A stretch of DNA of 64,000 bases, from NCBI GenBank assembly GCA_001599295.1, contig BCGN01000002.1, forward strand, positions 1,488,001-1,552,000, written 5' to 3'. The notes beneath the pieces were generated by a model. It did not search any database, was not told the origin of the DNA, and was given only the letters and a program-made list of their open reading frames with translations. Of this stretch, positions 4,865 to 44,868 are shown one piece after another. Position 1 is the stretch's first letter. Every line of letters starts with the position of its first letter. This stretch comes from Sporopachydermia quercuum (Eukaryota > Ascomycota > Sporopachydermiomycetes > Sporopachydermiales > Sporopachydermiaceae). The translations under genes and the position numbers were made by a program.

Positions 4865-6154
4865 TTAACCGGGATTCTCCAAAAACGAAACATTCCAGAC
4901 TCCTTGCTTCCGGAAAGGCTCTGGTAACTGTTGATTCACTATTTCAAGGCTCCCTTTAACTCGCTCATAAACGTCATCTGGTAGTATCACTTCTTCTTCT
5001 TCTACTGAAGTGTTGCTATCAGGCTTAGAAACTCCTGAGGAGTCAGAGAACCTGTATAGTGTTTTAAGTCCTTTCATTACATTCTCGGAACTTCCAGTTA
5101 TAAACTTGGTTCCAATACCTAAACACCAAATAGTAAAAGACTCTTCATTACTATTACCTTTACAGATCTCTACTTTATTAACAGCTTGACCATTAATGAG
5201 ATCCATTAGTTTATGAAATAAATACTTCCTTTCATCATAAGATTCTTTTCTGAATAGGATAATTGTTAGTAATAGTAGATTTTTCATCAACAGNTTAGGA
5301 TATTTTTACCTAATAGGATTGTATATCCGTCAGTCATCACCAATCACTCAATCAACATACTTATCTTCAATCATTAAATTAACAGACCACTTCCAGAATT
5401 TCACTGTTGATGTATTGAATTCCATCCCTAGTAAGGAATGACATTTCTCACACGAATATGAACTACCATTGACCCTAATCTTAGATATATTATTCTTATT
5501 GACAAGTAAATATGTTGAGCTCACTAATACTGTACCTAATCCAGCATCAAAACTAGAAAACTTATCAAGAGTCTTCATTACATTTTCCTGGTTACCAGCA
5601 TCTTCAAGATCAGGCTTATGGCAATGCCAGAAATCCATTAATTCAGACCAAAATTCCGACGGTAGCTCTTTATACTGCTTGATTGACCTTAGGTTCAAAA
5701 CGCAAGATTCGCACTTCCTGCAAACAAACTGATAAGTAACATGATTGTCTTTACTATCTCTCGATAGATCTTTCCCTGACCATTGATAATCCTCGACTTC
5801 ATTCATAAGAGTGCTAGAAGATTCTGGTGCTTGTTTCCGTTGAATATCTGTTTTAAATCTTGCTGTAAATACACCTTTTTCCGTATGAGGTTTCAGCTCT
5901 TGTAGTATACTACCAGATGTGTCATCATTCTGATACGCCGATGCTACTCTCTCAGCTAGTTTCAAAGTATAGTTTCTTTTGATACTGTCATGCACCCCTG
6001 ATTTTTCTACTTCAACTTCGATAGAGCAACATGTATTTGATAGTTTAGCGTGGGTTAAGTTCCAGTCGTTGTCGATCTGTATACAGCAGCTGACAAATCC
6101 TATTCTTGGTAAGCTCTCAGAGTAGTATGTGATACCCAGAATATCATCTGCCAT
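4865..6154 (-). CDS. IPA1: Ipa1 / E3D-type protein (cleavage and polyadenylation factor), two exons
   Basis: Ortholog of YJR141W (IPA1, needed for mRNA cleavage and polyadenylation; UBE3D/E3D family). Exon 1 is 6154-5361 and exon 2 is 5249-4865, together 392 residues (about 347 in S. cerevisiae). The 111-nt intron starts GTATGT, carries a perfect TACTAAC and ends CAG 16 nt later; both junctions are phase 2, so the frame continues as IED-KK-ESYDERK. A naive reading gives two separate ORFs with a stop between them. Visible marks are CRKCESC (C145, C148, C151), the family block LPSEFWSELMDFWHCHKP near 164-181 and CEKC (C235, C238), which could bind zinc. It is divergent from HIR3, as in S. cerevisiae. 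Confidence 0.88.
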
Positions 6155-37171: not shown

Positions 37172-38489
37172 TTATTTGCTGCCGACCCTATGACATTCTT
37201 TCAGGAACCAGTCAATCTGATCAGGATCCATTGTCGGATGAGTTCCATGACCAAAATTAATAATATAGTTTTGTTTACCACCACCAAAATCAGAAATCAT
37301 TTTCTCAACTTTCTCTGTAATCAATTCTTTACTGCCGTACATTGCACCTGGGTCAATGTTACCTTGAAGTACAACTCTTCCCTTAGCAATTTCTGTTGCT
37401 TGTTTGGGATCCCACAACCAATCCAACGATACAACATCATATCCTGAGTCGCAAAGCCAATCAAGAGCATACCAAGCACCTTTGGCGAAAACTGTTACGG
37501 GAATCTTTTCTTCAATTCCCAATTCCTTCAATTTTCCAGGGAGCTTTTCTGCAATTTGACGCAAATATGGTAGAGAGTAAGCTCTGAACTCATCTGGTCC
37601 TAATTCACCTGCCCAAGATTCAAAAACTTGTAATATTTGAGCACCAGCTTGGACTTGTAATGCTAAGAATTCTATGGCGACATCAGTAATTCTTTGTAAC
37701 AATTGTTTAGTNTCATTGGGATACTTATACAACCAGGTCTTGGCAAACTTGAACAATTTGGTACCACCACCTTCAATCATATACACCATAAGAGTCCAAG
37801 GAGCCCCNCAGAATCCAAATAATGGAACCCTGCCGTTTAATTTTTCTCTTGTGAGAGTGATAGCATTGAAAGCCCAGTCGAGTTCTTTGGCTACGTTAAC
37901 TGATTTTGATAGTTTTTCTAAATCCTCAGGAACACGAATTGGGTCAGGAAAATGGGGTCCTTGTTTTTCAATCATTTCAACTTTCATGCCCATAGCCTGA
38001 GGAATAACCAAGATATCACTAAAGATGATGGCAGCGTCGATGAGTCCATTGAAATGTTCTATTGGTTGAATTGTGATTTCAGATGCAGTCTCGGCATCTC
38101 TGCAAACTTCAAAAAAATCTTTGCCGTTTTTTACTTGCTCATATTCTGGAAGATATCTACCTGCTTGTCTCTAAATAGTATTTGTTAGTGCCTAGCAGAA
38201 AACTATAATCAAGCTAATACAGTGAGAGTGTTGATCACCNCTTGAATGACATTGGTGACATTAATAGTTTTCGAGTAACGTCTTAGTGTTTGTACGATTC
38301 AATGGCACTTACCATAATCCACATAGGTGGTCGTTCAACCTTTTCTCCTGAATTCTAGTTAGTTCACTACTTTTTACCAATAACTACAGATAGATTATAA
38401 TCATCAGCGGTAATTTGCACAATCCATTGATTCATACCTTTAGCAGCTCGGAGAATGAGGTCATTCCGAAGGGGAGCAAAGTTTGGCAT
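37172..38489 (-). CDS. HEM12: uroporphyrinogen decarboxylase, three exons
   Basis: Decarboxylates uroporphyrinogen III to coproporphyrinogen III, a cytosolic step of heme synthesis. Exon 1 is 38489-38438 (52 nt), exon 2 is 38347-38313 (35 nt) and exon 3 is 38170-37172, giving 361 residues (362 in S. cerevisiae). Intron 1 (90 nt) runs GTATGA to CAG with an AACTAAC branch site; intron 2 (142 nt) runs GTAAGT to TAG with CACTAAC. Splicing restores the signature [17 protein letters not shown] across both joints. [12 protein letters not shown] carries the catalytic aspartate, and the C-terminus [13 protein letters not shown] and CHRVGSK matches the family. Intron 2 falls between Met and Arg of WIMRQ. 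Exon 3 alone would begin inside the active-site region. Two N bases leave residues undefined. VMS1 downstream is syntenic. Confidence 0.96.
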
Positions 38490-42407: not shown

Positions 42408-42414
42408 TGACTCA
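42408..42414. promoter_or_regulatory. Gcn4-type site TGACTCA upstream of CPA1
   Basis: TTGACTCAT, about 690 bp before the leader uORF. CPA1 is under general amino-acid control in S. cerevisiae. A single 7-mer is weak evidence. Confidence 0.3.
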
Positions 42415-42703: not shown

Positions 42704-43096
42704 CCTAAACGTGACAAGAAACCCTGACATTTCCTCAACACCGACGAAAATTTTCAGAGTTTAACGACAAAAAATTTTGTGGTACTACAAAACTGGAACA
42801 ATTAATATAAAACTCATTGAGNTGACTGGAAGAAACAATTATAGACGATACTTGATAGATTGCAGATCAACTGTGAATTTTATAGGATTATTATATGCTG
42901 TAGAGCTTGAATTGCTACACCGAATATTTTCAAAAGGACAGTGAACGAACTTCGCTCACTAGTGATAGTGATCCCCACTATTTAGATCAGTCAATCGACT
43001 ATTGGAATCAACTTAGAACGAATTGTCCGAATAAAGGGCAGTAACAAATCTCGAACTGAGAGTATTTTTTTGAAATTGAGGATAGATTCTTCTTGT

Positions 43097-43409
43097 ATGA
43101 GGTTTTATTTCTCTACATTTACTTGTCAAGTAAGTCTTATTTACTAGTTTGCGGTCAATGACAACTGGAATAACAAATTTGAAGATTTGATTGCTGTTGC
43201 TGCGAATAAAGTACTAACCAACTGATAGGACTACATTTCTGGTAAGTGGAGATTTCNAGACGAATGAAAAGATCTGACAGATCTATAAAAATAATTATAC
43301 TTTTACTTCTAGAGGAATTTGAAGCTGTATTTAACGTTGCTCAGTAAACTAACAAACTATAACAGATCACATTTGGAAAACTAGTCGACAGTCAACTACA
43401 ACCTCTTGA
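43097..43409 (+). CDS. arginine attenuator peptide uORF of CPA1, three exons
   Basis: A regulatory upstream ORF in the CPA1 leader. Exon 1 is 43097-43129 (33 nt), exon 2 is 43229-43241 (13 nt) and exon 3 is 43366-43409 (44 nt), encoding 29 residues. Intron 1 (99 nt) is GTAAGT to TAG with TACTAAC at 43212-43218; intron 2 (124 nt) is GTAAGT to CAG with AACTAAC. The spliced core is FTCQDYISDHIWKTS, nearly identical to the S. cerevisiae CPA1 peptide (YTCQDYISDHIWKTS) and close to that of Neurospora arg-2. In those fungi the peptide stalls the ribosome when arginine is high and so reduces CPA1 translation; the aspartate after CQ is essential and is present. If intron 1 is retained, a stop arrives after five extra codons. 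The main ATG is 118 nt downstream. Confidence 0.93.
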
Positions 43410-43527
43410 AATCAATAAAAAGACCTAATAAATCCCAAAAAAAGAAAACAATAAAAATATTAATATAAGAAGTTAGGAAGATTACATTTCTATGCCAATT
43501 TCAACACATTCTGTCCATTGAATCAAA

Positions 43528-44868
43528 ATGAAGACTATTTTCCAATTATTCAGCATCGGATCTCAAACTTTGAGATCTAGGGTCACTACTCAAAGCAAAA
43601 TCGGCGTATCAAGAATCAATGTTAGATTTTTCTCAAATAATGGAGTTCGCTATCAATCAGGTTCAGTTGCCCCNGCTTTAGACAGAGCTACATTTACCAT
43701 CCGAGATGGGCCAGTGTTCCATGGTAAATCTTTCGGAGCTAACAAGAATATATCAGGGGAAGCTGTCTTTTCTACAGCTTTAGTTGGATACCCAGAATCC
43801 ATGACCGATCCTTCTTATAAGGGCCAAATCCTTGTTTTTACGCAACCTCTAATCGGTAACTACGGTGTCCCTTCCGGTAAAGTTAGAGATGAATACAACC
43901 TATTGAAGTATTTTGAGAGTCCTCATATACAATGCATTGGTATCGTTGTCGGTGATGTTGCTATGCAATATTCTCATTGGACTGCCATTGAATCATTGAG
44001 TGAATGGTGCCNAAGAGAAGGTGTTGCTGCAATTACTGGTGTTGATACCAGAGCCATTGTCACTTACTTGAGAGAACAAGGTTCTTCTTTAGCACGTATC
44101 ACTATCGGTGAAGAATACGATGCTGATGAAGACGAAGCGTTTGCTGATCCTGGTGCTATCAATTTAGTTCATAAGGTTACTACCAAGCAACCTTTCCATG
44201 TTTCATCAGCAGGCAACTATCACATTGCTGTTTTGGATTGTGGTGTCAAGGAAAACATTCTCAGATCATTAGTTTCTAGAGGTGCTTCTATCACTGTATT
44301 CCCTTACGATTACCCCATTCACAAGATTGCTCATCATTTTGATGGTATTTTCATTTCAAATGGTCCAGGGGATCCTACTCACTGCTCATCCACAGTTTAT
44401 CATCTGAAGAAGACAATGGAGACTTATCAAGGACCTATTTTCGGTATTTGCTTAGGTCATCAACTTTTAGCTTTGGCCTCTGGTGCTAAGACTATCAAGT
44501 TGAAATACGGTAACAGAGCTCATAATATTCCTGCTTTAGATTTAACCACCGGAAGATGTCACATCACCTCTCAAAACCATGGTTATGCCGTTGATACTGC
44601 TACATTGCCTCCTGAATTCAAAGAATATTTTGTTAATTTGAACGATCAATCTAATGAAGGTATGATACATACTACCAGACCTATTTTCTCAACCCAATTT
44701 CATCCTGAAGCTAAGGGAGGTCCTTTAGATTCTGCCTTCTTGTTCGACAAGTACTTTGATTTGATTAAAGAATATAAGAGTAAGCTAGTTTCTTCACCAG
44801 CAGATAACAGACCAAGTCCATTATTTGTGGATGTTTTAGCCAAGGAAAGAGTTGGGGTTGCTAATTGA
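43528..44868 (+). CDS. CPA1: carbamoyl-phosphate synthase, arginine-specific small (glutaminase) subunit
   Basis: Hydrolyses glutamine and passes ammonia to the large subunit Cpa2 for carbamoyl phosphate, used for citrulline and arginine. It has 446 residues against 411 in S. cerevisiae; the extra length is N-terminal. The first 45 or so residues ([18 protein letters not shown], then NVRFFSNN) are basic with an RFFS cleavage-like site, so mitochondrial import is likely, as for Neurospora ARG-2, while S. cerevisiae Cpa1 is cytosolic. The N-terminal domain ([27 protein letters not shown]) is followed by the class I glutamine amidotransferase domain with C308 (FGICLGHQ), H392 and E394 (QFHPEA). 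Translation is probably controlled by arginine through the upstream peptide ORF. Two N bases hide residues. Confidence 0.96.

Follow-up and report, generated by a model that had tools for sequence, protein, structure and literature searches.

The CPA1 gene of this budding yeast is very probably preceded by the upstream open reading frame (uORF) of the arginine attenuator peptide (AAP), which is split here by two ordinary spliceosomal introns around an internal exon of 13 nt, both introns being probably removed in a constitutive manner. The AAP is a classic example of an arrest peptide that senses a metabolite, and in this three-exon version its essential aspartate is carried by the 13-nt exon. 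The element is a genuine AAP uORF and as such familiar, but its division into three exons is unusual; regulated splicing is conceivable at most. In what follows, the window denotes the whole stretch of DNA that was analysed (64,000 nucleotides), and all positions are counted from its first letter. The uORF and the gene behind it comprise the following features:

43097..43129, + strand: AAP uORF exon 1, 33 nt; ATG and 10 codons, encoding MRFYFSTFTCQ and ending in phase 0
43130..43228, + strand: intron 1, 99 nt; GTAAGT...TACTAAC (43212-43218)...TAG, branch A 11 nt from the exon
43229..43241, + strand: micro-exon GACTACATTTCTG, 13 nt; codons D12, Y13, I14 and S15 and the first base of D16
43242..43365, + strand: intron 2, 124 nt; GTAAGT...AACTAAC (43347-43353)...CAG, branch A 13 nt from the exon
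43366..43409, + strand: AAP uORF exon 3, 44 nt with the stop; remainder of D16, then HIWKTSRQSTTTS and TGA
43492..43521, + strand: candidate second short uORF within the leader predicted for the mature mRNA; encodes MPISTHSVH, has T at -3 and stops 6 nt ahead of the CPA1 start codon
43528..44868, + strand: CPA1/arg-2-type carbamoyl-phosphate synthase (CPS) small subunit, 446 aa; PF00988 at E=4.1e-43 (residues 58-191) and PF00117 at E=1e-52

Joined computationally at their GT...AG boundaries, the three exons (90 nt) encode the 29-residue product MRFYFSTFTCQDYISDHIWKTSRQSTTTS. The AAP core, TCQDYISDHIW, occupies residues 9-19 of this spliced product and was recognized with the pattern T-[CS]-Q-D-Y-[IL]-S-D-H-[IL]-W. 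A single N, at position 43257, lies inside intron 2 and leaves the exons and the splice signals untouched. The preliminary description of this locus had proposed the three-exon layout; its coordinates, splice sites, exon and intron lengths, branch-like boxes and 29-residue peptide were all reproduced. At the level of sequence, the gene structure of the split uORF is firm, and its function we infer from the family to which it belongs.

A chance origin of the split core is excluded. Enumeration of the one- or two-intron GT-AG combinations between 43097 and 43420 (minimum intron length 40 nt) gave 1015, of which a single one yielded the AAP core. This result upholds the earlier claim that the regulatory peptide requires the removal of both introns. 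Furthermore, a window-wide search for the degenerate 33-base core, conducted on both strands and allowing 0, 1 or 2 introns of 40-500 nt, returned a single site, located at the AAP uORF. The same degenerate core gave 0 matches in 300 dinucleotide-preserving shuffles, each examined on 2 strands with N read as A.

The identity of the peptide is supported by comparison with a solved structure. In a Protein Data Bank search with the spliced peptide, the top match was 2xl1_A, an arginine attenuator peptide, at E=3.6e-4; the only other one with an E of 10 or less, a methyltransferase, had E=1.8. The database name of 2xl1 says only arginine attenuator peptide, and we take it to be the Neurospora crassa arg-2 peptide. 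Residues 6-21 align with residues 6-21 of 2xl1, in the same numbering and without gaps, and 10 of these 16 positions are identical. A point against the AAP reading is that the core identity depends on these 16 aligned residues. The Neurospora peptide comprises 24 residues, whereas the one described here comprises 29 residues distributed over three exons. The core that the split AAP has in common with the AAP of Saccharomyces cerevisiae CPA1 is presumably TCQDYISDHIWK; in S. cerevisiae, the uORF has no intron. The preliminary description had already recognized an AAP upstream of CPA1, and the match to 2xl1 together with the CPS small subunit domains downstream bears this out.

According to PMC7049704 and PMC11550727, N. 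crassa arg-2 is likewise the CPS small subunit gene. As described in PMC7049704, a conserved AAP uORF also stands before the same gene in Cryptococcus (CND01050, the CPA1 homologue), which is 5-fold up in a upf1 deletion; Cryptococcus, however, is a basidiomycete. In viral and prokaryote sequence collections, the uninterrupted AAP core had 0 and 0 matches, respectively. The degenerate micro-exon pattern hit 5 stretches of the viral collection; a flanking piece at 500 bases or less accompanied 0 of the 5, and they were rejected as chance matches. Candidate relatives of CPA1 in the viral collection (29 stretches found by pattern) were also discarded, 0 being confirmed.

The CPA1 ATG starts 118 nt after the stop codon of the AAP uORF, and the uORF would be situated in the CPA1 mRNA leader. 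Upstream of the AAP, an ATG at 42895 (+) opens a two-residue ORF (ML) which would be within the leader if transcription begins before 42895. A Gcn4-like TGACTCA at 42408 was considered as an informative site and dropped, since the window contains 13 such sites on both strands. In the CPA1 protein, 57 residues (43528-43700, +) precede the first conserved domain, and their start is basic and rich in Ser/Thr. This N-terminal segment looks like a mitochondrial presequence, whereas the S. cerevisiae CPA1 enzyme is devoid of one.

The start codon of the AAP uORF has a T at position -3, that of CPA1 an A. Within the window, a purine is found at -3 in 13 of 17 ORFs (a pyrimidine in 3, an N in 1), these being predicted starts selected by hand from 24; the seven omitted ORFs include HEM12, where the ORF start is not the gene start, as well as short or overlapping ORFs. 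The start context of the AAP uORF is thus weak and would fit leaky scanning, a behaviour that is itself expected by analogy with the family. On this model, the weak start would let many scanning ribosomes bypass the AAP uORF, and those translating it would hold the AAP core in their exit tunnel. At high arginine, ribosomes would arrest at the uORF, scanning to CPA1 would be blocked and arginine synthesis would be lowered. Such an arginine-dependent arrest is what other members of the family would lead us to expect.

What sets this uORF apart is the placement of its introns. The micro-exon opens with the codon for Asp12, a residue which we assume to correspond to D13 of the S. cerevisiae peptide. 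PMC7969011 states that ribosomes translating fungal AAPs stall at the uORF stop codon when Arg is high, and that the D13N substitution in the S. cerevisiae AAP abolished both arginine regulation and stalling. Leaky scanning, arrest and NMD all contribute to AAP action, as described in PMC11550727.

The C-terminus of the split AAP differs from that of its relative, a feature absent from the preliminary description. Ten residues follow the core Trp, vs five in 2xl1 (24 residues, Trp at 19). Since the numbering of the core is the same, the Neurospora arrest point would lie within the ORF, with five codons left to translate. At the equivalent position, the P site is occupied by codon 24 and the A site by a codon for Ser. 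By analogy, the split AAP may arrest ribosomes that are still elongating, before they reach the stop codon; extended AAPs can reportedly arrest elongation, as attributed to Wang, Fang and Sachs. The longer C-terminus and the second uORF both depart from the textbook AAP leader, and regulation could be altered. A longer-tailed AAP of this type provides a natural test of arrest during elongation.

The introns of the uORF were calibrated against five other introns from three genes of the window, a set found by inspection and not exhaustive:

37172-38489, - strand: HEM12 (uroporphyrinogen decarboxylase); a 35-nt exon between introns of 90 and 142 nt, about 4.6 kb from the AAP
4865-6154, - strand: HECT_2-domain gene; one 111-nt intron (5250-5360), without which two of the listed ORFs form a continuous frame of 392 residues
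39481-39828, + strand: small RAMP4/YSY6-like gene; introns of 78 and 84 nt, the first immediately after the ATG

Compared with these five, the two AAP introns are ordinary in length, 5′ site, branch box and branch-to-acceptor distance. A NACTAAC box is located 11-16 nt before the acceptor in 4 of the five, the exception being the first intron of the RAMP4-like gene (which we take for YSY6/RAMP4). Both AAP introns follow the pattern of the window, with GT...AG ends, NACTAAC 11-16 nt before the acceptor and a length of about 80-140 nt. When the joined N-terminus of HEM12 was aligned with solved UROD chains, the joints were gap-free and the one gap, of 2 residues, was elsewhere. A plain ORF scan starts HEM12 at 37993 and misses this N-terminus. 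The 35-nt internal exon of HEM12 implies that short exons need not be regulatory here. Overall, the comparison suggests that the AAP introns are ordinary in the window and that CPA1 is not alone in having a very short exon. For S. cerevisiae, PMC3226532 gives two coding-region introns in nine genes, of which SUS1 is one.

A riboswitch or a structured intron was also considered. Between 42600 and 43700, no Rfam match was found up to E=1, and unusual folding was absent from intron 1 (z -0.10), from intron 2 after the N (z -0.39) and from the span of exon 1 to exon 2 (z -0.51). The idea was dropped on these grounds.

Judging from their signals, the two AAP introns are most likely spliced constitutively. 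The preliminary description had raised splicing as a second control over arginine synthesis, and this proposal finds no support other than the anatomy itself: the introns are ordinary, unusual folds and Rfam matches were lacking in the region searched, and HEM12 has a short exon as well. A regulated inclusion of the micro-exon is improbable in our judgement. Skipping of exon 2 would remove a single intron of 236 nt that extends from the GTAAGT of intron 1 to the CAG of intron 2. As claimed earlier, this shifts the frame; the outcome is a complete alternative ORF of 31 residues, which ends at 43428 and lacks both Asp12 and the core. Because Asp12 resides on the micro-exon and D13N causes loss of regulation, skipping is expected to leave an arginine-blind uORF. 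CPA1 would then be partly and constitutively repressed, and splicing would set its arginine repressibility. GTAAGT is present at both 5′ sites, and exon 1 could in principle pair with the second acceptor. In addition, the branch A of intron 1 and the donor of intron 2 are 25 nt apart, a spacing at which crowding of U2 and U1 would be expected. A fungal precedent is provided by the Trichoderma virens Xlr2 gene, in which the inclusion of a very short internal exon decides the function of the product (PMC11121469); that exon has 20 nt, belongs to a transcription factor and is glucose-dependent by RNA data, whereas the AAP micro-exon has 13 nt, belongs to a uORF and is known from sequence. Similarly, the leader of N. 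crassa SAM decarboxylase is spliced with or without two uORFs, although its authors left regulation open (PMC5640933). A regulated micro-exon is opposed by the consensus-like signals of introns that are ordinary for the window, by their unremarkable folding and the missing Rfam match, and by the short exon of HEM12. The use of TACTAAC in intron 1 vs AACTAAC in intron 2 would, if anything, favour inclusion. Moreover, skipping of exon 2 in S. cerevisiae SUS1 is minimal, even in a splicing mutant (PMC12192654), which puts a low prior on regulated skipping. A more elaborate scheme, which we find quite doubtful, would turn the micro-exon into a splice-controlled arginine sensor cassette, its inclusion depending on spliceosome crowding over the 25 nt and perhaps on growth or nitrogen state and determining the arginine repressibility of CPA1 mRNA, with the extended C-terminus converting a termination-arrest into an elongation-arrest peptide.

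Intron retention could act as a control in a different manner, if exported unspliced CPA1 RNA were repressed or sent to NMD and splicing efficiency tuned CPA1; we hold this to be rather unlikely as well. From 43097 onward, four ATGs of the unspliced RNA precede that of CPA1 (43097, 43158, 43264 and 43492). Translation reproduced the product of 16 residues without the core that had been predicted for retention of intron 1, and intron 2 retained alone gives a product of 23 residues without the full core. According to PMC7049704, CPA1-type mRNAs are subject to NMD in both S. cerevisiae and N. crassa. Furthermore, multi-intron yeast genes can splice incompletely, as SUS1 intron 1 is retained at 14.67% in wild-type S. 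cerevisiae (PMC12192654). SUS1 is a two-intron gene with non-consensus sites, and its incomplete splicing argues against efficient constitutive splicing as a general rule. The AAP introns, unlike SUS1 intron 1, have consensus-like signals. With both introns retained, the four upstream ATGs predict stronger repression or NMD, not release of CPA1. Any unspliced RNA would share this outcome by default, and the sequence bears no sign of regulation. The least credible of the explanations, and a very improbable one, is that the exons are a decayed relic, CPA1 starting downstream of 43366 or the introns being left unremoved, so that the AAP is not made. The short second uORF closer to CPA1 would be consistent with such decay. 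However, the three pieces have preserved the frame, the splice signals and the core residues, of which a relic should lack one or more.

The preferred reading, a constitutively spliced AAP uORF in three exons, has a practical side. A split uORF can escape ORF scans of genomic DNA, and the absence of an AAP from a genome is therefore not to be read as loss. The split AAP also offers a natural test of a possible coupling between splicing and nascent-peptide sensing. Introns in AAP uORFs may already be described in the most relevant survey, that of Hood, Spevak and Sachs (2007, Fungal Genet Biol), which covers the gene of the CPS small subunit together with its uORF. Among the literature matches listed, there was no report of an intron within an AAP uORF, and a literature search on introns in uORFs returned 0 papers.

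Several observations concern the window as a whole. ARAGORN detected no tRNA in it. The four best matches of FBA1, with E below 1e-190, are aldolase chains, one of which (7yva) is labelled Candida albicans. An assignment to the CUG-Ser clade was rejected: within those regions of the RAD54-like protein and VMS1 that were aligned, 12 CTG codons, paired by eye, fell on Leu (5), Phe (3), Glu (2), Tyr (1), a gap (1) and Ser (0). With no CTG on Ser and 5 on Leu, this budding yeast was taken as lying outside that clade. The window also contains 63 ambiguous bases (N), of which 59 are single and the others form one run of four. Within the 17 examined ORFs, 25 N are found, distributed over first (6), second (6) and third (13) codon positions. 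The N bases of the window may be masked heterozygous sites.
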